A DNA stretch of 64,000 nt, taken from the NCBI RefSeq assembly GCF_003123745.1, contig NZ_QETB01000001.1, positions 744,001 through 808,000 of the forward strand, read 5' to 3'. The notes below the pieces were generated by a model. The model did no database searches, had not been told where the DNA came from, and was given only the letters and a program-made list of their open reading frames with translations. This DNA comes from Ancrocorticia populi. GTDB taxonomy: Bacteria > Actinomycetota > Actinomycetes > Actinomycetales > Actinomycetaceae. Positions 4,427-59,620 of the stretch are shown here, piece by piece; within the stretch, counting starts at the first letter, position 1, and each line of letters opens with the position of its first letter. The translations under genes were made by a program, and so were the position numbers.

Positions 4427-5263
4427 ATGGGAATCCGTAAGTACAAGCCGACGACCCCTGGTCGCCGCGGTGCGAGCGTTGCCGACTTCGCTGAGATCAC
4501 CCGATCGACGCCCGAGAAGTCGCTGGTTCGTCCGCTGAAGAAGACCGGTGGCCGCGATAATTCCGGCCGCATCTCCACTCGTCACAAGGGTGGCGGCCAC
4601 AAGCGTCAATACCGCGTTATTGACTTCCGCCGCTGGGATAAGGACGGCGTGCCCGCCAAGGTCGCTCACATTGAGTATGACCCGAACCGTACGGCCCGCA
4701 TCGCCCTGCTCCACTACGCTGATGGCGCCAAGCGCTACATCCTCGCCCCGAAGAATCTTCATCAGGGTGACGTAGTTGAGAGCGGTCCGGCCGCGGACAT
4801 CAAGCCCGGCAACAACCTGCCACTGAAGAACATTCCGGTAGGTACCACCGTTCACAGCGTTGAGCTTCGCCCCCTCGGTGGCGCGAAGATCGCTCGCTCG
4901 GCCGGCACCTCTGTTCAGCTGGTTGCCCGTGAAGGCAAGTACGCTCAGCTGCGTATGCCTTCCGGGGAAATCCGCAACGTCGAAGCTGGCTGCCGCGCCT
5001 GCATCGGCGAAGTAGGTAACGCCGAACAGATCAACATTAACTGGGGCAAGGCAGGCCGCAATCGTTGGAAGGGCGTTCGCCCAACCGTCCGCGGTGTTGT
5101 GATGAACCCGATCGACCATCCACATGGTGGTGGCGAGGGCAAGACCTCTGGTGGCCGTCATCCGGTCAGCCCATGGGGCAAGCCTGAAGGCCGTACACGC
5201 CATGCAAACAAGGCCAGCGACAAGCTCATTGTGCGCCGTCGCAAGACCGGCAGCAAGCGGTAA
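4427..5263 (+). CDS. rplB: 50S ribosomal protein L2
   Basis: 278 residues, the standard length. Recognised from [17 protein letters not shown], the [17 protein letters not shown]-type segment (here [17 protein letters not shown]) and the C-terminal [19 protein letters not shown] loop, whose histidine region is close to the peptidyl transferase centre. Ends in the basic tail KTGSKR. Confidence 0.98.
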
Positions 5264-5276
5264 GAGAGGTTAGCTG

Positions 5277-5558
5277 ATGCCACGTAGTTTGAAGAAGGGC
5301 CCCTTCGTTGATGATCACCTTCAGAAGAAGGTTGATGACCAGAACGAAAAGGGCAGCAAGAATGTCATCAAGACTTGGTCTCGTCGGTCGATGATTACGC
5401 CCGACTTCCTCGGTCACACTTTCGCAGTGCACGATGGCCGCAAGCATGTGCCGGTATTCGTCACCGAGTCCATGGTTGGCCACAAGCTCGGGGAGTTCGC
5501 CCCGACCCGCACTTTCCGCGGGCACGATAAGGACGACCGCAAGGGCCGCCGCCGCTAA
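5277..5558 (+). CDS. rpsS: 30S ribosomal protein S19
   Basis: 93 residues. [19 protein letters not shown] and [29 protein letters not shown] are the family's conserved blocks. S19 binds the small-subunit head with S13. The ATG follows an AGAGAGG ribosome binding site. Confidence 0.98.
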
Positions 5559-5591
5559 GGCGCGAGCTAGCAGAGAGAGTAAGGCAGAAAC

Positions 5592-5972
5592 ATGGAAGCC
5601 AAGGCGCAGGCGCGATTCGTGCGCGTCACGCCCCTGAAAGCTCGCCGTATCGTGGATGTTGTCCGCGGGAAGCGTGCTGTCGAGGCGCTAGAGGTGCTCG
5701 CATACGCACCACAGGGGGCGGCTGAGCCCGTCCGCAAAGTTGTCGAGTCCGCGATTGCTAATGCTCGGTACGCCGCTGATCAGGCGGGCGAGCGGTTCAA
5801 CGAAGAGGACCTTTACATTCAGGCGATCTACGCCGATGAAGGCCCCACGATGAAGCGCATTCGTCCCCGTGCTCAGGGCCGGGCCGATCGCGTGATGAAG
5901 CGTACGAGCCACATTACTGTTGTTGTCGGTGACTCTAAGGTTGCCGCTGGATCTAAGGGAAGGAACCGCTAG
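5592..5972 (+). CDS. rplV: 50S ribosomal protein L22
   Basis: 126 residues. [21 protein letters not shown] begins the globular part, and the beta-hairpin segment [25 protein letters not shown] reaches into the exit tunnel, where changes give macrolide resistance in other species. The last base of the stop is the first base of the rpsC GTG. Confidence 0.97.
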
Positions 5973-6796
5973 TGGGGCAGAAGGTTAACCCAACCGGGTT
6001 CCGCCTCGGAATTACCACGGACCACCGTTCAAAGTGGTTCGCCGATTCCTCAAAGGCCGGCCAGCGCTACGCCGATTTCGTAGCAGAAGACATTCAGATT
6101 CGTAAGATGATCGAGAAGACGCTTGAGCGTGCAGGTATTTCCCGCGTGAACATCGAGCGCCGCGCCGAGCGCGTTGTTGTGGATATCCACACCGCCCGCC
6201 CCGGCATCGTCATCGGACGCCGCGGCGCAGAGGCCGATCGCCTCCGCGCTGACCTTGAGAAGCTGACCGGCAAGTCCATTCAGCTCAATATCCTCGAGGT
6301 GAAGAACCCGGAAGCCGATGCTCAGCTTGTTGCACAGGGCATCGCAGAGCAGCTCGCCTCCCGCGTCTCATTCCGCCGCGCCATGCGCCGTGGAATGCAG
6401 TCCGCAGAGCGCGCTGGCGCCAAGGGCATTCGTGTCCAGTGCGCGGGCCGTCTTGGTGGCGCTGAAATGTCACGTTCCGAGTTCTACCGTGAAGGCCGCG
6501 TGCCGCTGCACACCCTTCGCGCAAACATCGATTACGGCTTCCACGAGGCCCGCACCACCTTCGGGCGCATTGGCGTCAAGGTGTGGATCTACCGTGGCGA
6601 CGTTACCGATACAGAGTATTTCCGCTCCCTGGCTGAGGCCCCACGTGGTGGCCGTGGCCGTGGTGGTGACCGCCGTGGACGTCGCGGAGACCGTCATGGT
6701 CGCGGCAATGCCCCACAGGGTCAGGCACCACAAGCAGCTGCCAAGAACAGCGAAACCGCCTCGGAGCCAGCAACCACAGCAGGATCGGAGGCCTGA
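5972..6796 (+). CDS. rpsC: 30S ribosomal protein S3 with long basic C-terminal tail
   Basis: 274 residues from a GTG that overlaps the rplV stop. [15 protein letters not shown] is the S3 signature, and the KH domain GXXG is in [13 protein letters not shown]. Residues from about 220 onward form a low-complexity tail rich in Arg and Gly ([20 protein letters not shown]), then Ala, Gln and Thr. Many actinobacterial S3 proteins carry such tails, but this makes it longer than the roughly 230 residues of other bacteria. S3 forms part of the mRNA entry channel. Confidence 0.97.
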
Positions 6797-6798
6797 GA

Positions 6799-7215
6799 AT
6801 GCTGATTCCAAGGCGCACCAAGTGGCGCAAACAGCACCGTCCAACCCGTACCGGTATGGCTAAGGGTGGCACCGAGCTGGCGTTCGGCGATTTTGGTATT
6901 CAGGCTCTCGAGCCGGCCTACGTCACGAACCGTCAGATTGAGGCCGCACGTATCGCCATGACCCGTCACGTCAAGCGTGGCGGCAAGATCTGGATCAACA
7001 TCTTCCCGGATCGCCCGCTGACCAAGAAGGCTCTTGGCCTTCGTATGGGTTCCGGTAAGGGCCCGGTTGAGACCTGGGTTGCCAACGTCAAGCCCGGTCG
7101 CATCATGTTCGAGATGGGTGGCGTCAACGAGGAACTGGCTCAAGAGGCCATGTCCCGTGCCATGCACAAGCTACCGATGAAGACCCGTTTCGTTTCACGT
7201 GAGGAGGCAGAGTAA
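6799..7215 (+). CDS. rplP: 50S ribosomal protein L16
   Basis: 138 residues. [15 protein letters not shown] and [23 protein letters not shown], together with [14 protein letters not shown], identify L16, which contacts the A-site tRNA region. The final A of its TAA is the A of the rpmC ATG. Confidence 0.98.
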
Positions 7216-7445
7216 TGGCCAAGGGACTTTCTACTGAAGAACTCGATGTCATGACGGATGCCGAACTCATGGAGAAGCTGAAGGAGTCCAAGGAGGAGCT
7301 GTTTAACCTACGCTTCTCTGCGGTAACCCACCGCCTCGAAGATAGCGGCCGCCTTCGTGAAGTCCGCCGGGAGATTGCCCGGATCTACACGATCAAGCGC
7401 GAGCGCGAGCTCGATATCCGCACCGCTCCAGCAGCTGAGAAGTGA
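7215..7445 (+). CDS. rpmC: 50S ribosomal protein L29
   Basis: 76 residues, with conserved [31 protein letters not shown] followed by [12 protein letters not shown]. Small helical protein at the tunnel exit. Start codon overlaps the rplP stop (TAATG). Confidence 0.97.
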
Positions 7446-7453
7446 GGTCAAGA

Positions 7454-7729
7454 GTGAGCGAGCAGAATACAGTTACAGAGCGTAACCACCGCAAGGTTCT
7501 TCGGGGTTACGTTGTGAGCGACAAGATGGACAAGACAGTAACCGTCGAGGTCGATGATCGCCGGAAGCATCCCGTTTACGGCAAGGTCATCACTCACACC
7601 CGCCGTGTGAAGGCCCACGATGAGAACAACGAGGTAGGCGTTGGCGATCTGGTCCGCATCATGGAGACCCGTCCGCTGAGCGCAACTAAGCACTACCGCG
7701 TGGTTGAAATCGTCGAAAAGGCTAAGTGA
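7454..7729 (+). CDS. rpsQ: 30S ribosomal protein S17
   Basis: 91 residues. [23 protein letters not shown] and the segment [19 protein letters not shown] are the S17 OB-fold signature. I choose the GTG at 7454 because a GAGGT ribosome binding site (7444-7448) precedes it at good distance and the protein then begins [11 protein letters not shown]; the in-frame GTG at 7442 overlaps the rpmC stop and would add four residues. Last gene of the S10 set. Confidence 0.95.
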
Positions 7730-7809
7730 CCTTTCGGGCCGCTTTGAAACCCCATCCGTTCGGCAAGGCTCGTTAACGAGAACCGGCACGACGACAGGAG
7801 AAACAACAC

Positions 7810-8178
7810 ATGATCCAGCAAGAGTCGCGGCTATCAGTCGCTGATAACACCGGTGCAAAGGAGATCCTTTGCATCCGTGTACTCGGTGGCTCGGGCCGGC
7901 GCTACGCCGGAATTGGCGACACGATCGCCGCCACCGTCAAGGATGCAATCCCTGGCGGAAACGTTAAGAAGGGCGATGTGGTCAAGGCCGTTATCGTCCG
8001 CACAAAGAAGGAAACGCGCCGTACCGACGGTTCGTACATTCGCTTCGATGAGAACGCTGCGGTGTTGCTCAAGAACGAAAACGAGCCTCGCGGCACACGT
8101 ATCTTCGGGCCCGTTGGGCGCGAACTGCGCGATAAGAAGTTCATGCGAATCATTTCGCTCGCACCGGAGGTGATCTGA
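7810..8178 (+). CDS. rplN: 50S ribosomal protein L14
   Basis: 122 residues. [31 protein letters not shown] is diagnostic. First gene of the spc group. The 80-base gap before it contains a perfect palindrome CTCGTTAACGAG (7769-7780), possibly an RNA hairpin or regulatory site, and a CAGGAG ribosome binding site. Stop and rplX start overlap (TGATG). Confidence 0.98.
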
Positions 8179-8522
8179 TGGCGAAGATTAAGAAAGACGA
8201 CCTCGTCCAGGTCATCGCTGGCCGTGACAAGGGAATGCAGGGCCGGGTTCTCTCGGTAGATTCTGCTAACGACCGCGTTGTTGTTGAAGGCGTTATGCGC
8301 GTCAAGAAGCACGTCAAGGTTGGCCAGAGCGGCCGCGGAGCAACCACGGGAGGAATCGAGACCGTTGAGGCCCCGATCCACATCTCGAATGTTGCCCTTG
8401 TTGGCCCCGATAAGAAGCCGATCCGCGTTGGCCACCGTGAGGTAGAAGTTGAGCGCGACGGGCGTAAGAAGATCGTCCGTGAGCGCATTGGCCGCCGCGG
8501 TGGGAAGGAGATCGAGCTGTGA
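8178..8522 (+). CDS. rplX: 50S ribosomal protein L24
   Basis: 114 residues. [24 protein letters not shown] is the KOW motif that defines L24, followed by [32 protein letters not shown]24 nucleates assembly of the large subunit. Overlaps rplE by four bases. Confidence 0.97.
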
Positions 8523-9067
8523 GCACTCCTCGTCTAAAGACCAAGTACCGCGGGGAAATCATCCCCGCTCTCGAGGCTGAGTTCAATCACGCCAACCTTC
8601 ACAACGTTGCTGGTTTGCAGAAGATCGTTGTGAACATGGGCGTGGGCGAAGCCGCTCGTGACTCCAAGGTGTTGGACGGTGCAGTTGCGGACCTTACCGC
8701 GATCACCGGCCAGAAGCCGCAGATCACCAAGGCGAAGAAGTCCATCGCACAGTTCAAGCTGCGCGAGGGCCAGCCGATTGGATGCCATGTCACCCTTCGC
8801 GGTGACCGCATGTGGGAGTTCCTGGATCGGCTTCTCGCCACCGCGCTTCCTCGTATCCGCGACTTCCGTGGCCTCAGCCCCAAGCAGTTCGATGGCAACG
8901 GAAACTACACGTTCGGCTTGACCGAACAGACAGTGTTCCACGAGATCGATCAGGACAAGATTGATCGGGTTCGCGGAATGGACATCACCCTGGTCACCAC
9001 GGCCAAGGACGATTCCGAGGGTCGCTCACTTCTGCGCCAACTCGGATTCCCGTTCAAGGAGGACTGA
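8519..9067 (+). CDS. rplE: 50S ribosomal protein L5
   Basis: 182 residues from a GTG overlapping the rplX stop. [40 protein letters not shown] and [21 protein letters not shown] are conserved L5 blocks. L5 binds 5S rRNA and touches S13 across the subunit interface. Confidence 0.98.
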
Positions 9068-34184: not shown

Positions 34185-34380
34185 ACGCCGATCCTCTCAT
34201 ATGGCGCGTTGCAACTCCGTGGCATGACCGGTACGGTTGAGATGTAGCTCACTATTTCTTAGTCCAGCGCTGGAACCCACCAGTGAGCGCCTAGCATCCG
34301 TAATCGGAATTGCTAGCCATTAAAAAGTACGCGACATTTCCAACCCGCGGCCAAAGTAGGCCGTGTGAGGAGAAAAAGAA

Positions 34381-37300
34381 ATGCCTCTGCCCAAACGATT
34401 AGGAATTATTGCAGCCGCTCTAGCGCTCGTGACTACCCCACTTGCTGCCGCTGCCGATACGCAAGAAGAAGAATCAACCAACGGCCCTGAAACATGCATT
34501 ACCAAGGAAGCTGATGGATCGGTCAGAGTCTTAGAACCCGGTGACTGTGCCCAGTTCGGAAAGGAAGGGCCCGGACGCACAGATGCCAAGGCTCGAAATG
34601 TCATCCTCATTATTGGTGACGGCATGGGCCAACAGGAAATAACTGCGGCCCGCAACTATCTTGAAGGTGCGGCAGGAAGGTTCAACGGCTTAGATAGTTT
34701 CGTTGCCGCTGGCACCTATACCCACCATTCTGTTAATAAGGATGGCTCCTTCCAATACCGGACCGATTCGGCATCCTCGGCCACCGCGTGGGCCACGGGT
34801 ACCAAAACATACGATGGCGCGATCGGTGTGGATCTGGCCGGTGAGCCGGTTCAGAATCTGCTAGAGATGGCCAAGAATGGCGGGATGAGAACGGGCAATG
34901 TTTCCACTGCCGAGATTCAGGATGCCACGCCCGGAGCAATGGGTGCGCATGCTCTTCATCGCAAGTGTTATGGCCCCGAGGAATCCAACCATGAGGATTG
35001 CCAAGGTGAAGAGTTTGCCTCGCAGTACCGTGAGAATGGTGGATTAGGCTCGATTTCGGAACAGATCGTTGATACCCGAGCGGATGTTACTTTGGGTGGC
35101 GGGCTCGCGGCTTTCAACGAGTCAGTTGTAGAAGGAGGCGAGGCTCGCAGCCCGTTCGTCGATTCATCTACTACATGGACTGAGGGAGACACCGTCCTGG
35201 AGAACGCAGAAGATAACGGCTTCCAGGTGGTGACGGATAAGGATGCTCTAGCGGACATTTCGGAGGCCAATCAGGATGGCCCTCTACTTGGACTGTTCAA
35301 CGATGGGAATATGACCACCCGCTTTGAACCCAGCACGCCCAGTGTTGGAGGTACCCAAGAGGAGCCCGTGACGTGTGAATTGCAGGATACCGGGGATGAA
35401 CCGGAGCTTGCGGACATGACCACCAAGGCGATTGAGCTTCTGGATGATCCGGAAGCTGAAGATGGATTCTTCTTGCAGGTTGAATCTGCGTCCGTTGACA
35501 AAATGAGTCATGAGGCGAACTCGTGCGGGATGATCGGGGAAGTGGCCCGGATTGATGAAGCGATCACCGCGGCCCTCGACTTCGCTGAAGAAGATGGTGA
35601 GACGCTGGTGATGGTCACGGCGGATCACTCGCATTCCACCCAGATTCTCGAAGATGACACGGAAACCGTTTCTCCTGCCACAAGGCTCACAACGGAGGAC
35701 GGCGTTGGCCAGTCCCTCGGCTATGGCACTATGCCAGCTGAGGAAGTGACGGATGATCCGGACGTTTCCCTTCAGCACAGCGGTGCCCAGTTGAGGATCG
35801 CCGCATACGGCCCCGGAGCTGAGAACGTGATTGGCCAGACCGACCAAACTGACACCCATTACACGATTGCCAATGCGCTCGAATTGGGTGATTGGGAGGT
35901 GGCTGAGGTCAATCCCGATCTGCAAGTTGACGTGACTAAAGCGGCGGAACCCGTTGATGCCCGTGAGACGTGCTATCTGATGAATGAAGATGGCTCGCTT
36001 GCTCCGGGGGCAGGCGATTGTGCCCAGTTTGGTACGGAGGGCCAACAGATCGATGACGAACAGGCAAAGAATGTAGTTATCGTGATTGCTGACGGCACGG
36101 GTGATTCTGAGATCACCTCCGCCCGAAACTATCTCCACGGCGCGAACGGCAGGCTTGAAGGCATAGACGAGCTTCCGTTCACAGGCATGGCCACCACCTT
36201 CTCGTTGGAAGCTGAGAATGGACTGCCGGACCTCGTAACCGATTCATCGGCATCTGCATCTGCGTGGACTACAGGTGTGAAGACGTATGACGGTGCTGTG
36301 GCTGTTGACCTCAACGGCGAACCTGTTCCAACACTCGCGGAGCTAGCTCGCAAAGACGGAATGAAGGTTGGGAACGTCAGCACGGCCGAGATTCAGGACG
36401 CTACTCCATCCTCCTTCGCCGCTCATGCGCTCGATCGCAAGTGTTACGGACCCGAGGAGGAGAAGAACGATGAATCCTGCCAAGGTGAGGATTTCGCCTC
36501 TCAGTATCGTGAGAATGGCGGCCTCGGTTCTATATCCGAGCAGATCGTAGACCTGCGGGCAGATGTGACACTTGGCGGAGGTTCAGATGCATTCGATCAG
36601 ATTGTCCAAGCGGGCGGCAACTGGGGAGGCAATACCTGGACGGAAGGCGATTCGGTCCTAGATAACGCCAAGAGCCAAGGATATCAAGTGGTCACAACTG
36701 CCGACGAACTAGACGGCATCTCCGCGGCCAATACTGAGGAACCCGTTCTAGGATTGTTCTCGGAGGGCAACTTCCCTCGCAACTACGAGCAGTCGATTCC
36801 CGAAATCGACGGGGCAACAGGTGAGGCAATCGAATGCTCTCCGAACCCCGAGCGGCCGGATTCCATCCCCGCCTTGGATCATATGACCACAACGGCGATG
36901 GACCTGCTCCAAAATGACGAGGGATTCTTGCTTCAAGTTGAGGCTGCATCGGTAGATAAGGCTAACCATGACGCGGACTTCTGTGGGCAGGCCGGAGAGT
37001 TTGAAGAATACGATCAAGCAGTTCAGGCGGTGAGAAACTGGGTGGAAGAAAGCGGTGAACCGACGTTGTTGGTTGTGACCACGGATCACGCGCACACCTC
37101 CCAGATCACCACGATTGATCAGAACACTTCGGGGTTAACGAGCAGAATTGTCACGGCCGATGGCGATGACATGGTGATTAACTACGCCACTGCTGCATCG
37201 AATGACCATGATGTTGCCCTTGGCGGACAGAACCACACGGGCACACAGATGCGCGTTGGTGCAGAAGGGCCGGGCGCCCGCAATCTGCTGGGCCAGATTG

Positions 37301-37521
37301 ATCAGACCGATATAGCGTTCGCGGTATCAAATTCGCTTGGGTTGGACTTCGTAGAACACGAAATTGATCTGAGCCCACAGTGGGACAGTGAAGCGCAATA
37401 CCCCGTTACAGATAGTGGCAGTACCAATACGGTGTGGATCATTGTGGGCGCTGTAGTGCTGGTTGGCGTGGTAGCGATCCTTGTCTATACGCTCAACGCG
37501 AGAAGAAAGAGGGAGGACTGA
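34381..37521 (+). CDS. Secreted tandem two-domain PhoA-type alkaline phosphatase, membrane-anchored
   Basis: 1046 residues: signal peptide (about 1-25), alkaline phosphatase domain 1 (about 37-525), domain 2 (about 527-1005) and a C-terminal membrane helix (WIIVGAVVLVGVVAILVY) with a basic tail. Both domains follow E. coli PhoA closely. Metal Asp: D80 (GDGMG) and D571 (ADGTG). Nucleophile Ser: S130 (TDSASSATAW) and S622 (TDSSASASAW). Both keep RKCYGP, VE.ASVDK..H, DHxH and the late His (QHSGAQ, NHTGTQ), plus the four PhoA disulphide cysteines. Each unit begins with a short Cys-bounded segment ending GDCAQFG. Ordinary PhoA is about 450 residues and dimeric; here both copies are in one chain. 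Preceded by GGAG. Confidence 0.93.
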   Translation: MPLPKRLGIIAAALALVTTPLAAAADTQEEESTNGPETCITKEADGSVRVLEPGDCAQFGKEGPGRTDAKARNVILIIGDGMGQQEITAARNYLEGAAGRFNGLDSFVAAGTYTHHSVNKDGSFQYRTDSASSATAWATGTKTYDGAIGVDLAGEPVQNLLEMAKNGGMRTGNVSTAEIQDATPGAMGAHALHRKCYGPEESNHEDCQGEEFASQYRENGGLGSISEQIVDTRADVTLGGGLAAFNESVVEGGEARSPFVDSSTTWTEGDTVLENAEDNGFQVVTDKDALADISEANQDGPLLGLFNDGNMTTRFEPSTPSVGGTQEEPVTCELQDTGDEPELADMTTKAIELLDDPEAEDGFFLQVESASVDKMSHEANSCGMIGEVARIDEAITAALDFAEEDGETLVMVTADHSHSTQILEDDTETVSPATRLTTEDGVGQSLGYGTMPAEEVTDDPDVSLQHSGAQLRIAAYGPGAENVIGQTDQTDTHYTIANALELGDWEVAEVNPDLQVDVTKAAEPVDARETCYLMNEDGSLAPGAGDCAQFGTEGQQIDDEQAKNVVIVIADGTGDSEITSARNYLHGANGRLEGIDELPFTGMATTFSLEAENGLPDLVTDSSASASAWTTGVKTYDGAVAVDLNGEPVPTLAELARKDGMKVGNVSTAEIQDATPSSFAAHALDRKCYGPEEEKNDESCQGEDFASQYRENGGLGSISEQIVDLRADVTLGGGSDAFDQIVQAGGNWGGNTWTEGDSVLDNAKSQGYQVVTTADELDGISAANTEEPVLGLFSEGNFPRNYEQSIPEIDGATGEAIECSPNPERPDSIPALDHMTTTAMDLLQNDEGFLLQVEAASVDKANHDADFCGQAGEFEEYDQAVQAVRNWVEESGEPTLLVVTTDHAHTSQITTIDQNTSGLTSRIVTADGDDMVINYATAASNDHDVALGGQNHTGTQMRVGAEGPGARNLLGQIDQTDIAFAVSNSLGLDFVEHEIDLSPQWDSEAQYPVTDSGSTNTVWIIVGAVVLVGVVAILVYTLNARRKRED

Positions 37522-37549: not shown

Positions 37550-37676
37550 CCTTCTTAGTGGACGTAGCTTCGGCTACGGCTTGTGCCCGGTTCGGGCCCG
37601 GCCCCCGCGACGGCGGGTCCCGCGGCTAGGCATTTCTAACCAAAGCACGAGTTATATAGAAGAAGGGGGATCCGCA

Positions 37677-40260
<2,584 letters not shown>

Positions 40261-40321
40261 GATGAATCCTCTCGTCTGCTGTCCAGCCTATCGGGCACCT
40301 CCCACATGTAAGCTATTGGAC

Positions 40322-41434
40322 GTGAGTGAAGTTGAGATTGGACGAGGTAAGAGGGCCCGGCGGGCCTACACGCTCGATGATGTAGCGGTGGTGGCATCGC
40401 GCCGTACTCGGGACGTCCGCGAGGTATCAACCTCGTGGCAATTCGACGCCTATCATCTGGATGTTCCCATCCTGTCTGCACCTATGGACTCAGTCACCTC
40501 ACCTGCCTCCGCGATAGCGATCGGCAAACTCGGGGGAGTGGGCGTGCTTGACCTGGAGGGCCTATGGACCCGCTACGAGGATCCTGAACCGCTATTGGAA
40601 GAAATCTCGCATCTAGATGATGTTCAGGCTACCTTGCGGATGCAGGAGATCTATCAGGAGCCGGTCAAACCTGAGCTCCTTCGCGAGCGGCTTCGCCAGA
40701 TTCGGGAAGCCGACGTGACTGTGGCGGGCGCCCTTTCGCCGGGCCGCACTCAGGCCCTGTGGCGCACCGTCGTGGATGCTGGCGTGGATATCTTCGTGAT
40801 TCGCGGAACCACGGTTTCCGCCGAACACGTGTCCGCTAACCGCGAGCCACTCAACCTCAAGCGGTTCATTTACGAGTTGGACGTTCCCGTAATTGTGGGT
40901 GGGTCCGTGACATATAACGGGGCTCTGCACCTTATGCGTACGGGTGCCGCTGGAGTACTTGCTGGCTACGGCGGAGGGGCGGCTTCTGCCAACCGCCGCA
41001 CCGTGGGTATTACCTCTCCAATGGCCACCACCATCGCCGACATTGCCGCTGCACGGCGCGATTATCTGGATGAGTCCTCTGGACGCTACGTCCACGTGAT
41101 CGCTGATGGATCAATCAGCACCTCGGGAGATCTGGTCAAAGCAGTTGCCTGCGGCGCCGATGCCGTCATGCTCGGAACCGCCCTCGCTCGCGCCGAAGAG
41201 GCACCGGGGCGCGGCTGGCACTGGGGCGCCGAAGCCCGGCATGCGCGCCTGCCCCGGGGCGAACGTGTTGCCGTGGATCGGGCGGGAACGCTCGAAGAAA
41301 TACTTTTCGGACCGTCGCATTCGGCGAATGGACTATCCAACCTCATGGGGGCGCTTCGCCATGCCATGGCCGCTAATGGATACTCGGATGTTAAAGAGTT
41401 CCAGCGGGCTGAACTTGTTGTGACAGACAGTTAG
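40322..41434 (+). CDS. guaB3: GuaB3-family IMP dehydrogenase-related protein
   Basis: 370 residues from GTG 40322, a second IMPDH-like protein of the kind common in actinobacteria. The barrel is recognisable (VPILSAPMDSVTSPASAIAIGKLGGVGVLDLEG, IADGSISTSGDLVKAVACGADAVMLGTALA), but there are no CBS domains, and the loop that carries the catalytic Cys in GuaB reads GYGGGAASANRRTVG, with no Cys. It is therefore unlikely to be a normal IMP dehydrogenase. A TAAGCT (40309-40314) seven bases before the GTG may be a leaderless -10. The FCD regulator follows after 6 bases. Confidence 0.9.
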   Translation: MSEVEIGRGKRARRAYTLDDVAVVASRRTRDVREVSTSWQFDAYHLDVPILSAPMDSVTSPASAIAIGKLGGVGVLDLEGLWTRYEDPEPLLEEISHLDDVQATLRMQEIYQEPVKPELLRERLRQIREADVTVAGALSPGRTQALWRTVVDAGVDIFVIRGTTVSAEHVSANREPLNLKRFIYELDVPVIVGGSVTYNGALHLMRTGAAGVLAGYGGGAASANRRTVGITSPMATTIADIAAARRDYLDESSGRYVHVIADGSISTSGDLVKAVACGADAVMLGTALARAEEAPGRGWHWGAEARHARLPRGERVAVDRAGTLEEILFGPSHSANGLSNLMGALRHAMAANGYSDVKEFQRAELVVTDS

Positions 41435-41440
41435 GAAATC

Positions 41441-42133
41441 ATGGCAAACGGACAGCCCGTACGCTCCAAGACAACGGGGACGATCGATCGTATCCTCGAG
41501 ATGATTGACAGTGATGGCCTGACGCCCGGCCAGCGCCTGCCTTCCGAACGCGCTCTGGCAGCGGACCTGCGGGTTTCGCGCGCCACTGTGCGCGAGGCGA
41601 TTATGGCGCTTCAGATCGCCGGCCGGGTCGAGAGCCGATCGGGGGATGGAACCTACATCCTCGAAGCGCCCGCCCAGATCGGGGATTCAGATATCAAGGT
41701 GCAGGCGGGCCTAGATATCACAGATGCGCTTGAATATCGTATGGCCATTGAGATTTCGGCCGCGGTTCTGTCCTGTGCGAGAGCCCGCAAGTCCGACGTG
41801 ATGCGTATGCAGGCAGTTGTTGAGGCGATGTCCGAATGCCTAGAAGATGACGATTACGAGGGCTATCTGGATGCCACTTACGATCTTCACCTCGCCATCG
41901 GTCAGGCCTCTCACTCCAAGCGGCTTAGTGCCGTCCACAGAGCACTCACGGAGCAGACTCGCGACGAGGAGTGGCTCTTGGCCGAGAGCTACAACCCCGA
42001 GATCGCCGCGCATTCGATGCAGCTCCACCGCGAGATGGTATCCGCGATTGCGGCCCGTGACACCGAGCGAACCGTGAAGGCCGTAGAGGCCCATTACATC
42101 GAGTTCCCCGCCCTGAGTGAGTCACTGGTCTGA
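41441..42133 (+). CDS. FadR/GntR-family regulator with FCD domain
   Basis: 230 residues. The winged helix is at 10-75 (LTPGQRLPSERALAADLRVSRATVREAIMALQIAGRVESRSGDGTYI), then an all-helical FCD ligand domain with metal-type residues (DATYDLHLAIGQASHSKRL, LHREMVSAIAARDTERTVKAVEAHYIEF). Such proteins sense organic acids. It lies 6 bases after guaB3. A GGTCTGACC palindrome overlaps its stop codon, and a similar site precedes aspA at 59953, so aspartate/C4-dicarboxylate genes are a plausible target (inference). Its 3' end is partly duplicated at 59509-59620. Confidence 0.9.
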   Translation: MANGQPVRSKTTGTIDRILEMIDSDGLTPGQRLPSERALAADLRVSRATVREAIMALQIAGRVESRSGDGTYILEAPAQIGDSDIKVQAGLDITDALEYRMAIEISAAVLSCARARKSDVMRMQAVVEAMSECLEDDDYEGYLDATYDLHLAIGQASHSKRLSAVHRALTEQTRDEEWLLAESYNPEIAAHSMQLHREMVSAIAARDTERTVKAVEAHYIEFPALSESLV

Positions 42134-42154
42134 CCAATGTGCCGTCGTCGTTAA
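42046..42154 (+). repeat. Island-flanking direct repeat, left copy
   Basis: The last 29 codons of the FCD regulator plus 21 bases downstream recur at 59509-59620. The two copies differ at eight coding positions, all synonymous, and by one GTC unit. The segment from GAGTCACTGG through the GTCGTCGT run (about 33 bases around the stop codon) is identical. Confidence 0.9.
42126..42136. promoter_or_regulatory. Candidate FCD-regulator operator at the island's left edge
   Basis: TGGTCTGACCA, an 11-base palindrome overlapping the regulator's TGA stop. FadR/PdhR-type proteins bind TGGTNNNACCA-like sites. The same sequence recurs at 59589-59599, and CGGTCAGACCA is at 59901-59911 before aspA. Confidence 0.45.
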
Positions 42155-42178: not shown

Positions 42179-43498
42179 TCAGATGCTTTCAATCCAAGCA
42201 AGAGGGTTGTCTACTACGTGCTGGAGTACTTGGTGTGCGGCGCCGGTGACTGACAATGCTGCCAAGGAATCGAGATTGGGAATTCGGAACTCAGGTTGGG
42301 ACCAAGCGGATTGCAGAACGCGGTTATGTAGCTCTGCGCTTGCGGCTGGGATGAGTTCTTGTCCTATTTCAGCAACTACTCCTCCTAACAGAACCTCGGG
42401 GATGTCCACAGTGTTGATGACGGCCGCAAGTGCTCGCCCCAGAGCAGCACCCGCCTCGTTGATGGCACGACTCGCCGAGAGGGAACCGTCTCGTGCAGCA
42501 GCAGCAACGTTGGATGGCGTTGCATTCTCGCCTAACCCAGCCCGTCGGGCGAGTGCGCGTAATCCCAAGTATGCCTCTAAGCAGCCCGTGGCCCCGCACG
42601 AGCAAATCGGTCCGGTTGGGTCCACACAAATATGACCGATTTCCCCCGACCAGCCGTGTGCGCCGGATAACGGACGGTAATCAACTATGATGCCCGCGCC
42701 AATACCCACTTCGCCAGATACATAGACAAAGGAGCTGGGGCCTTCAGGCGTGCCTGGGCGTGGGTTCGCGACAGCAAAAGCGGCCAAATCTGCCTCGTTG
42801 GCAACGAGGCTGGGGTGTAGGTCTGCCAGCGGTGTTATCAGATCCACCCGGGACAGATCGCGCCACCCCAGATTCGGGGCGACCGCGAGTGCGTCTCCAG
42901 AGACAAGCCCTGGGAGGGCGAGGCCGGACCCAACTAATCGAGGGTGTACAGGCCCGCTAGCAATGGCCTCCGATAGTACGCTCCGTCCTAGACTGGCCAG
43001 TTGGGTAAGCGTCGTCTTCGGATGCGAGCCGGCGAAATCGCCGGAAATGCGAGTGTCGGCGAGGACTGTGCCGGTAAGATCGACAGCTCTGGCCGCCAAG
43101 TAAGAGACGTTGACTTCAAGTCCGATAGCGAATGCGGTTCGAGCTTGTGGGGTAAGACGAGTGGCTGGGCGTCCCCGTGTGGGCTGGGCGGCAGGGGAGA
43201 GCTCACTCACGAGGCCGGAATGCATCAGATCGTCGACAAGGCGGGATGCAGTCGCGCGTGTGATTCCGGTATATCCCGCTATATCAGCACGCGAGACCAT
43301 GCCAGGCTTGGCTAAGATATGGCTCAAGACGAGAGAAAGGTTCGTCGCTCGCAGGGACTCGCTAGTGACCCCTTTACGTTTGCGAGTCTCGATGCCCGCA
43401 TTCCTAGTGGGCGCTGACGAATTAGGTAGGCCTGAACGCATAGGTCGATTGTACGGTGAGTTTACGGGAAGGGTTGACATGTTGGTGATTCTACCCAT
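42179..43498 (-). CDS. xylR: ROK-family xylose repressor XylR
   Basis: 439 residues: a MarR-like winged helix (about 50-115; [30 protein letters not shown]) and a ROK sugar-binding domain with [29 protein letters not shown] and the zinc motif [14 protein letters not shown]. Divergent from xylA and therefore the xylose repressor. The start is uncertain: ATG 43498 lies 3 bases from the TGTTTTGT palindrome, and ATG 43480 and 43438 are alternatives; none has a clear ribosome binding site. If 43498 is right, the operator also controls its own transcription. Confidence 0.9.
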
Positions 43499-43522
43499 AT
43501 TGTTTTGTTAAGCTACAAAACA
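43474..43522 (+). promoter_or_regulatory. xylA promoter and XylR operator, copy 1
   Basis: TTGACA (43474-43479), 18 bases, TATTGT (43498-43503). The palindrome TGTTTTGT-N6-ACAAAACA (43501-43522) has perfect 8-base arms, overlaps the -10 box and covers the start site, the classic position for a repressor operator. XylR as the binding protein is inferred from position. Confidence 0.75.
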
Positions 43523-43564
43523 GTGAGCAGCGGTGATGCTGTGGACACATGGAGGTGTCAGGAT

Positions 43565-44917
43565 ATGAGTAATTTGTGGGATGTTGAATCGATACCGTTT
43601 GTTGGGGCTGAGGATCCGCGGCAGGGTTTGGGTTTTCATTATTATCAGCCTGATCGGGTTGTTGCGGGTAAGCCGATGAAGGATTGGCTGCGGTTTGCGG
43701 TGGCTTACTGGCATACGTTTAATCAGCGTTTGGTTGATCCGTTTGGGGATGGGACTGCGCGTCGGCCGTATGACGGGTTGAGTGATCCGATGGATTTGGC
43801 GTTGGCGAAGGTGGATTACACGTTCGAGTTTTATCGCAAGTTGGGTGTGGAGTATTTCTGTTTCCATGATCGTGATATTGCCCCTGAGGGTGACACGTTG
43901 AGGGAGACGAATGCGAATCTTGATCGGGTTGTGGATCATATTGCTGATTTGCAGGCTGATTCAGGTATGAAGCTGCTGTGGAACACGTCGAGTTTGTTTA
44001 CGAATCCTCGATTTGTTTCTGGTGGTGCGACTTCTCCGTTTGCTGATATTTATGCTTATTCGGCTGGTCAAGTGAAGCATTCTTTGGAGATTGCTAAGCG
44101 TTTGGGTGCTGAGAATTATGTGTTCTGGGGTGGCCGGGAAGGCTACGAGAATATTTGGAACACAGATTTGAAGCGCGAGCAGGATCATATCGCTCGTTTT
44201 TTCCAGCTATGTGTTGATTATGCGGGCGAGATCGGGTTGGATGCTCAGTTTTTGTTGGAGCCTAAGCCGAAGGAGCCGACAAATCATCAGTATGATTTTG
44301 ATGCGGCGACGACGATTGCGTTCTTGCAGACGTATGGTTTGGATGATCATTTCAAGTTGAATCTTGAGGGTAATCACGCGAATTTGGCGGGACATACCTA
44401 CCAGCATGAGATCCGGGTGGCGCGGGCTGCTGGGATGTTGGGATCTTTGGATGCGAATCAGGGCGATAAGCTCATTGGCTGGGATATTGATGAGTTTCCC
44501 TCGGATTTGTATGAGACCACAGCAGTCATGTGGGAAATTCTGGCTGAGGGCAAGATCGGTCCACAGGGCTGTGGTGGTTTGAACTTTGATGCCAAGCCCC
44601 GGCGCACGTCTTTCGACGCTGAAGATCTATTCCGCACCCATATCGTGGGTATGGATTCATACGCGGCCGGTCTCTTGGTTGCCGCTAAGCTTCATGAGGA
44701 CCAGTATTTCGAGGATCTGGTCAGCCAGCGTTACAGCTCATTTGACTCGGGAATCGGTGCCAGTGTCGAGGATAAGACCGCGACTCTGGCCAGCCTCGAA
44801 GAGCACGCCTTGGACGTGTCTCAAGCTGATTTGCTAGCCGCGACCCATTCCGATCATCTCGAATCGGTCAAAGCCACACTCAACAACTACCTCATCCAAA
44901 CCCTCGCACACGCCTAA
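43565..44917 (+). CDS. xylA: Xylose isomerase (class II), copy 1
   Basis: Isomerises D-xylose to D-xylulose. 450 residues from ATG 43565 with GGAGG upstream. H101 and D104 ([12 protein letters not shown]) have the same numbers as in E. coli XylA; LLIEPKP-like [33 protein letters not shown] and [11 protein letters not shown] complete the metal and sugar site. The long class II form differs from the roughly 390-residue class I enzyme of most actinobacteria and resembles bifidobacterial XylA. Codons in the first two thirds almost never end in C, whereas the last third uses C freely, so the gene may be a mosaic. Identical to copy 2. Confidence 0.97.
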
Positions 44918-44966
44918 AAGGCTAACACCGCGAGCTACTTTGTCTACAGGGAGGAAGGAATCAAAG

Positions 44967-47081: not shown

Positions 47082-47083
47082 GG

Positions 47084-47132
47084 TTGACATGTTGGTGATT
47101 CTACCCATATTGTTTTGTTAAGCTACAAAACA
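47084..47132 (+). promoter_or_regulatory. xylA promoter and XylR operator, copy 2
   Basis: TTGACA (47084-47089), TATTGT (47108-47113) and TGTTTTGT-N6-ACAAAACA (47111-47132), identical to copy 1. It would put xylA copy 2 and xylFGH under the same repressor. Confidence 0.75.
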
Positions 47133-47174
47133 GTGAGCAGCGGTGATGCTGTGGACACATGGAGGTGTCAGGAT

Positions 47175-48527
47175 ATGAGTAATTTGTGGGATGTTGAATC
47201 GATACCGTTTGTTGGGGCTGAGGATCCGCGGCAGGGTTTGGGTTTTCATTATTATCAGCCTGATCGGGTTGTTGCGGGTAAGCCGATGAAGGATTGGCTG
47301 CGGTTTGCGGTGGCTTACTGGCATACGTTTAATCAGCGTTTGGTTGATCCGTTTGGGGATGGGACTGCGCGTCGGCCGTATGACGGGTTGAGTGATCCGA
47401 TGGATTTGGCGTTGGCGAAGGTGGATTACACGTTCGAGTTTTATCGCAAGTTGGGTGTGGAGTATTTCTGTTTCCATGATCGTGATATTGCCCCTGAGGG
47501 TGACACGTTGAGGGAGACGAATGCGAATCTTGATCGGGTTGTGGATCATATTGCTGATTTGCAGGCTGATTCAGGTATGAAGCTGCTGTGGAACACGTCG
47601 AGTTTGTTTACGAATCCTCGATTTGTTTCTGGTGGTGCGACTTCTCCGTTTGCTGATATTTATGCTTATTCGGCTGGTCAAGTGAAGCATTCTTTGGAGA
47701 TTGCTAAGCGTTTGGGTGCTGAGAATTATGTGTTCTGGGGTGGCCGGGAAGGCTACGAGAATATTTGGAACACAGATTTGAAGCGCGAGCAGGATCATAT
47801 CGCTCGTTTTTTCCAGCTATGTGTTGATTATGCGGGCGAGATCGGGTTGGATGCTCAGTTTTTGTTGGAGCCTAAGCCGAAGGAGCCGACAAATCATCAG
47901 TATGATTTTGATGCGGCGACGACGATTGCGTTCTTGCAGACGTATGGTTTGGATGATCATTTCAAGTTGAATCTTGAGGGTAATCACGCGAATTTGGCGG
48001 GACATACCTACCAGCATGAGATCCGGGTGGCGCGGGCTGCTGGGATGTTGGGATCTTTGGATGCGAATCAGGGCGATAAGCTCATTGGCTGGGATATTGA
48101 TGAGTTTCCCTCGGATTTGTATGAGACCACAGCAGTCATGTGGGAAATTCTGGCTGAGGGCAAGATCGGTCCACAGGGCTGTGGTGGTTTGAACTTTGAT
48201 GCCAAGCCCCGGCGCACGTCTTTCGACGCTGAAGATCTATTCCGCACCCATATCGTGGGTATGGATTCATACGCGGCCGGTCTCTTGGTTGCCGCTAAGC
48301 TTCATGAGGACCAGTATTTCGAGGATCTGGTCAGCCAGCGTTACAGCTCATTTGACTCGGGAATCGGTGCCAGTGTCGAGGATAAGACCGCGACTCTGGC
48401 CAGCCTCGAAGAGCACGCCTTGGACGTGTCTCAAGCTGATTTGCTAGCCGCGACCCATTCCGATCATCTCGAATCGGTCAAAGCCACACTCAACAACTAC
48501 CTCATCCAAACCCTCGCACACGCCTAA
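47175..48527 (+). CDS. xylA: Xylose isomerase (class II), copy 2
   Basis: Identical over all 450 residues to the copy at 43565, with the same start, ribosome binding site and codon-use switch. Here it heads the xylF-xylG-xylH transport genes instead of xylB. It would double xylA dosage and, more importantly, carries the inducible promoter for the transporter. Confidence 0.97.
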
Positions 48528-48665
48528 AAGGCTAACACCGGGCGAATGGGGCATTCGAGGCTGATCTCTTAGGTGTCCGTCGCACGGGATAGAAAAACAA
48601 ACAATCAAATATGAGAAGTTCTCCGACGGTTGCAGTGTCGAGGACAAATTACAAAGGAGCCAGAA

Positions 48666-59508: not shown

Positions 59509-59620
59509 GATTGCCGCTCGCGACACCGAGCGAACCGTGAAGGCAGTTGAGGCCCATTACATTGAGTTCCCCGCGCTGAGCGAGTCACTGGTCTGACCAA
59601 TGTGCCGTCGTCGTCGTTAA
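59509..59620 (+). repeat. Island-flanking direct repeat, right copy
   Basis: Matches 42046-42154. Upstream of GATTGCC the similarity stops abruptly; downstream it ends at GTTAA. It has one extra GTC unit. Confidence 0.9.
59510..59596 (+). pseudogene. 3' remnant of the FCD regulator gene
   Basis: Encodes IAARDTERTVKAVEAH then YIEFPALSESLV and a TGA, exactly the last 28 residues of the regulator at 41441, with eight silent base differences. There is no start codon or upstream part. The silent differences mean that it derives from an orthologue that had diverged under selection, not from a simple copy of the present gene. Confidence 0.88.

Follow-up and report, generated by a model that had tools for sequence, protein, structure and literature searches.

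Judged by its sequence, the tandem PhoA of Ancrocorticia populi is a real, conserved two-site form of a known enzyme, and each of its domains is an ordinary PhoA. We put at about 0.6 the probability that it is a secreted, membrane-anchored phosphomonoesterase whose two PhoA domains were fused once, pair with each other as a canonical dimer made from one chain, and serve in phosphate scavenging. The species description reports that A. populi sk1b4T came from poplar canker bark and places it in the family Actinomycetaceae (PMC6612551).

Gene and Domain Organization

The gene lies within a 64,000-nucleotide stretch of the A. populi genome (the window). Both translation of the open reading frame (ORF) and a profile search of the genome gave a frame without internal stop or frameshift. 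Its features, in window coordinates, are as follows.

34367-34372, + strand: ribosome-binding site GAGGAG, 8 nt 5' of the ATG, from sequence
34381-37521, + strand: tandem PhoA ORF, 1046 aa, ATG to stop, single open frame
34381-34455, + strand: putative Sec-type signal peptide, approximately residues 1-25, by eye from sequence
34474-34599, + strand: N-terminal arm of half 1, approximately residues 32-73, with two extra cysteines
34591-35886, + strand: PhoA domain 1, Pfam residues 71-502
34768-34770, + strand: codon of nucleophile S130 (domain 1)
34927-35118, + strand: R166/disulphide-hairpin segment of half 1 (E. coli 155-212), which shows apparent between-half exchange in the family
35887-36063, + strand: linker and arm of half 2, approximately residues 503-561, with two arm cysteines
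36064-37335, + strand: PhoA domain 2, residues 562-985
36244-36246, + strand: codon of nucleophile S622 (domain 2)
36403-36597, + strand: R166/disulphide-hairpin segment of half 2
37435-37494, + strand: C-terminal hydrophobic helix, approximately residues 1019-1038, by eye

The first-pass annotation described two complete PhoA enzymes fused in one chain, and the profile searches bear this out, with two full-length PF00245 matches in one open frame. The protein contains two Pfam Alk_phosphatase (PF00245) stretches (overall E 1e-165). When the profile was run against the genome, domain 1 was matched over profile positions 1-423 (E 1.8e-84, 282.5 bits) and domain 2 over positions 1-420 (E 1.4e-77, 259.8 bits), the cut-off being 24.4 bits. 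The NCBIfam PhoA equivalog PRK10518 gave 1031 bits, in two stretches, against a cut-off of 540. The halves are 53% identical to each other, half 1 is 50% identical to E. coli PhoA, and sequence matches to PhoA entries in the PDB have E values down to 1e-118. A stop or frameshift between the domains had been named as the case against a fusion; the open ORF excludes it in the assembly. Since 13 other genomes carry the tandem, an assembly accident is an unlikely origin for the A. populi fusion, and we rejected an assembly or pseudogene artefact because the tandem frame is open in all 13.

Scans at the gene found no sigma-70-like promoter and no terminator. Directly downstream lies groES (37581-37973), followed by guaB, an exonuclease gene, and a second IMPDH-like gene (37581-41434 in all). 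GC3 is 0.58 for the tandem gene versus 0.71 for guaB and 0.74 for tsaD. Elsewhere in the window, an exact 1459-bp direct repeat (100% identical; 43472-44930 and 47082-48540) holds a whole xylose-isomerase-like gene in each copy, and between them lies an FGGY carbohydrate kinase gene. There is also a 106-bp near-repeat, 92% identical, at 42046-42151 and 59509-59614.

Active Sites

Twelve positions that we take to be the catalytic set were numbered by alignment to E. coli K-12 PhoA: D51, S102, D153, T155, R166, E322, D327, K328, H331, D369, H370, and H412. All are present in 14/14 first and 14/14 second halves of the tandem proteins found in the family. The A. populi protein has 12/12 in each half, including the metal ligands, and the alignment places the nucleophiles at Ser130 and Ser622, where the first-pass annotation had put them. 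Its claim of disulphide cysteines in both halves also stands, as cysteines align with E. coli C168, C178, C286, and C336. Both domains look able to work.

A difference near the metal site, GDGMG in half 1 versus ADGTG in half 2, had been put forward as a sign of different substrates. The difference is as described. Its proposed meaning is weakened by comparison with relatives: GDGMG is found in 14/14 first and 13/14 second halves, and ADGTG in one of the 14 second halves, that of A. populi. The underlying G50A/M53T change in half 2 is unique to this genome.

What survives of the idea of two unlike sites is a set of six other positions that separate the halves over the 14 proteins. First halves carry Q55, R344, and S371 (14/14 each; D55Q, D344R, and A371S); second halves carry L72 and W355 (14/14 each) and I364 (13/14), corresponding to F72L, F355W, and V364I. 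Position 371 adjoins the metal ligand H370. These positions may confer a mild functional asymmetry between the halves. T59, presumably the residue at the dimer axis of E. coli PhoA, is kept in 27/28 halves. Position 81, which we take to be another interface residue, is T in all 14 second halves and in two of the 14 first halves (16/28 overall). Because this position differs by half, the interface may not be canonical.

Distribution of the Fusion

A PF00245 match of any kind was found in 36 of the 213 genomes of GTDB family f1 (Actinomycetaceae). Two domains in one open frame of more than 1000 aa were found in 14/213, spread over 9 of 36 genera (G000, G001, G013, G052-G056, G083, G091, G135, G158, G209, and G210); five of the proteins, all from a single genus, are near-copies, which means that the set is not made up of 14 independent cases. 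The first-pass annotation had asked whether the fusion is restricted to a clade. In an order-level draw of 396 genomes, one tandem was found outside f1, in G290 of family f20. Overlapping draws of 394 genomes at class level and 296 at phylum level gave no further tandem, in searches whose control was detected in 7 of the 14 named genomes.

In the tree, the G290 tandem (locus 5031-8876) is placed outside the tandem clade, a position made unsure by long branches. Its second half has lost the nucleophile and most metal ligands and other catalytic residues and, by these residues, is a pseudo-enzyme partner. An AU test of whether the two G290 halves are sisters gave p = 0.44, with both branches long.

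A broken, shortened relative of the tandem gene was seen in G047 (C67:1241000-1254000, 5582-7391). Its first piece is open and 83% identical to half 1 of G013; the second, in a different ORF, is 79% identical to half 2 of G013. Missing from the remnant are the last part of half 1 and the first part of half 2, and the junction, at approximately 207-228 in E. coli mature numbering, coincides with the end of the R166 segment. The break is possibly an assembly error.

A plasmid or phage source was rejected on the matches listed. In the 15 of 244 plasmid records concerned, the two query halves matched a single stretch of approximately 1.2-1.4 kb, too short for a tandem, and the match was shorter than 1 kb in 9/9 phage records. 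Scans of viral contigs yielded three distinct usable PhoA proteins, one further viral scan was empty, and a search of genome contigs gave a single distant relative.

Origin and Selection

The tree was built from 51 of 53 aligned rows, the degenerate G290 second half and one near-duplicate having been dropped. A phylogeny of the halves had been suggested as a check, and it separates them cleanly: the 14 first halves form a clade with support of 100/99 and the 14 second halves a clade with support of 100/100. Together, the two clades occupy one side of a branch with support of 94/83. Of all tandem halves, those of A. populi sit on the longest branches (0.55 and 0.69). With the halves in two strongly supported clades, the simplest reading is a single origin. 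Tandem duplication and fusion of a PhoA gene would then have taken place in an ancestor within the Actinomycetaceae, before the nine genera split, and would have been followed by losses from most lineages or by transfer inside the family.

In relatives, purifying selection acts on both halves. One genus offers ten possible pairs, and in five of them dN/dS is 0.010-0.071 for both halves. A sixth pair, from another genus, gives 0.049 for the second half, the first half being saturated. These values cover the relatives' genera; the genus of A. populi is represented by this genome alone. Taken with the catalytic residues, they show that the tandem proteins have retained two intact active sites since the fusion arose.

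Neighboring genes of the tandem are common to G001, G052-G056, and G135; to G209 and G210; and to G013 and G047. In G158, exonuclease and GuaB-like genes lie beside the tandem, as in A. populi; of the 13 relatives with a tandem, compared over loci of 13-14.5 kb, G158 alone has neighbors that match genes of the A. populi window. Shared neighbors support, in parts, descent in place.

Apparent Exchange around R166

One segment departs from the pattern of the whole domains. It spans E. coli positions 155-212 (R166, the hairpin disulphide, and the next residues), with borders chosen after a sliding-window view; a narrower cut, 160-195, was also examined. The comparison used 10 proteins, leaving out four near-copies of G052. 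In three other segments, each half is nearest to the like half of another species in 10/10 proteins. In 155-212, both halves of A. populi and of G135 are closer to the partner half in their own protein than to any other tandem half. The same is true of one half each of G001, G052, and G091, and the other five proteins show no such case in this segment. A tree of the segment (26 rows, 60 columns) mixes the halves, with a mixed group supported at 98/93, and has seven label changes versus one in the whole-domain tree, which has a larger row set.

At the DNA level, the signal is confined to G135. Over positions 152-190, its halves are 100% identical in protein and 95% identical at third codon positions, and the identical-codon test gave p = 0.0016 and 0.0010 (uncorrected for the number of genes, 11). 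Among the 11 genes tested, this was the only one significant by both measures, and no significant tract was found in the segment in the other 10, including that of A. populi. The longest run in G013 lies inside the segment and is not significant (p = 0.36), as its halves are alike at the codon level throughout; one stretch in G001 (p = 0.0125) lies elsewhere in the gene and is not significant after correction. Recent gene conversion in the A. populi gene, where the longest run of identical codons has p = 0.94, is unsupported. It looks as if the R166 segment is copied between halves now and then, as seen in the DNA of G135; for the other proteins that show it, we infer this from the protein pattern. 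Outside G135, older conversion or parallel selection are both possible sources of the likeness.

Arms and Probable Surface Anchoring

The two cores are 59-64 aa apart in 13/14 proteins and 73 aa apart in G158. The first arms have two extra cysteines in 14/14 proteins; the second arms have two in 8/14 and none in 6/14. This suggests an arm disulphide that is absent from E. coli PhoA.

Secretion and membrane anchoring, as given in the first-pass annotation, are consistent with the putative signal peptide and the C-terminal helix, both recognized by eye. In A. populi, a 20-residue hydrophobic stretch is followed by the positive tail NARRKRED (by eye), and the helix would tether the enzyme to the cell. 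By eye, no sortase motif (LPXTG- or LAXTG-like) precedes the helix in the A. populi tail. Sorting-like signals (LARTG, LAWTG, or MARTG) were seen by eye at the C termini of G209, G210, G091, and G158, and G083 ends in S-layer (SLH) domains. G001, G052-G056, and G135 have C-terminal repeats (by eye), to which no Pfam model gives a name in the three proteins scanned. Holding the enzyme at the surface seems to be a recurring feature, achieved by different means in different lineages.

Phosphatase Phenotype

The tandem gene is the only PF00245 gene that the profile search found in the A. populi genome (2,651,737 bases, 8 contigs), and neither PhoD nor PhoX was found there. In API ZYM tests of the type strain, the species description records a negative result for alkaline phosphatase and a positive one for acid phosphatase (PMC6612551). 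With no other PF00245, PhoD, or PhoX gene found, the tandem gene is the one from which the missing activity would most obviously be expected. The result means that activity was not evident in the tested conditions and argues against a constitutively active enzyme. Repression by phosphate under API ZYM conditions would explain it. PhoU and a PstS-type binding-protein domain are present in the genome, which makes a phosphate-scavenging role likely: the enzyme would release phosphate from organic phosphate and would be induced by phosphate shortage.

Discussion

The two domains most likely pair mutually as a canonical PhoA dimer, one chain doing the work of two subunits. An intramolecular dimer is plausible, and domains tethered by a linker of near-constant length would pair most easily with each other. 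The conservation of T59 lends it indirect support as well. Monomers of E. coli PhoA generally lack activity (PMC6325577). AlphaFold2, run on the whole chain, gave no usable model (pLDDT 37.2, pTM 0.33) from a shallow alignment of six rows, namely the A. populi protein, its two halves, and three viral-contig PhoA proteins, with the added rows aligned to half 1. A more demanding version of the intramolecular dimer has some appeal, and we hold it tentatively, at less than even odds. It would be an obligate heterodimer in which two permanently non-equivalent sites face one another over the classic interface and stay compatible through copying of the R166 segment between halves.

The same domains could instead pair between chains, giving surface oligomers or chains of dimers, like beads on a string. 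The roughly 60 residues between cores would also allow this, and the difference between halves at position 81 would fit it. We consider it unlikely, as the linker is held near-constant rather than drifting, and the large buried surface of the dimer (22% in E. coli PhoA; PMC3145672) favors the tethered partner by proximity. A further possibility overlaps with intramolecular pairing and goes beyond it: the domains pair, and the two sites are adapted to different substrates, pH values, or metal states. The six half-specific positions point this way, above all position 371 beside H370. That the halves do not differ at any of the 12 catalytic residues, that ADGTG is not common to relatives, that apparent exchange of the R166 segment works against divergence there, and that the 14 proteins include five near-copies from a single genus make such a division of labor improbable in our judgment.

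One half, or the whole enzyme, might also be losing function in the A. populi lineage. The negative API ZYM result (PMC6612551) would agree with decay, and the long branches together with the unique G50A/M53T change in half 2 suggest that one A. populi site may be weakened. The broken gene of G047 and the dead second half of the separate G290 tandem are likewise what decay would look like. Against it, neither half of the A. populi protein has lost a catalytic residue or a disulphide cysteine and the frame is open, and we give this explanation little credence.

Compared with E. coli PhoA (PF00245; PRK10518), the tandem protein shares the fold family by sequence, the catalytic and metal-binding residues, both disulphides, and, in each half, an N-terminal arm followed by a core. 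It differs in having two copies per chain, a C-terminal membrane helix, an extra cysteine pair per arm, and a longer R166 hairpin loop. The single PhoA proteins of other Actinomycetota, including G184 of the Actinomycetaceae, belong to the same family and have the same catalytic residues but, unlike the tandem, have one domain and lie outside the tandem clade. Tandem duplication and fusion inside one gene is known as gene elongation and has been described for histidine biosynthetic genes (PMC7284861). The PhoA tandem resembles that process in duplication, fusion, and divergence of two modules and differs in that each half is a whole enzyme of an already dimerizing family. Among the matches listed from the open-licence PMC literature, no natural tandem PhoA is described in titles or abstract openings. 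A two-site tandem with a single apparent origin in one family and probable segment exchange is likewise not described there.

PhoA is a textbook homodimeric enzyme, and the independence of its two sites is an old question, made hard by the fact that one gene encodes both subunits. A natural fusion in nine genera, with both sites intact, would allow each site to be mutated alone in a fixed one-to-one pair. It also offers a case of divergence within one gene, where some positions come to differ between the halves and the segment around the catalytic arginine appears to be exchanged. If the intramolecular heterodimer is true, its separately mutable sites would provide a ready-made test of subunit cooperation, such as half-of-sites behavior, in alkaline phosphatase.
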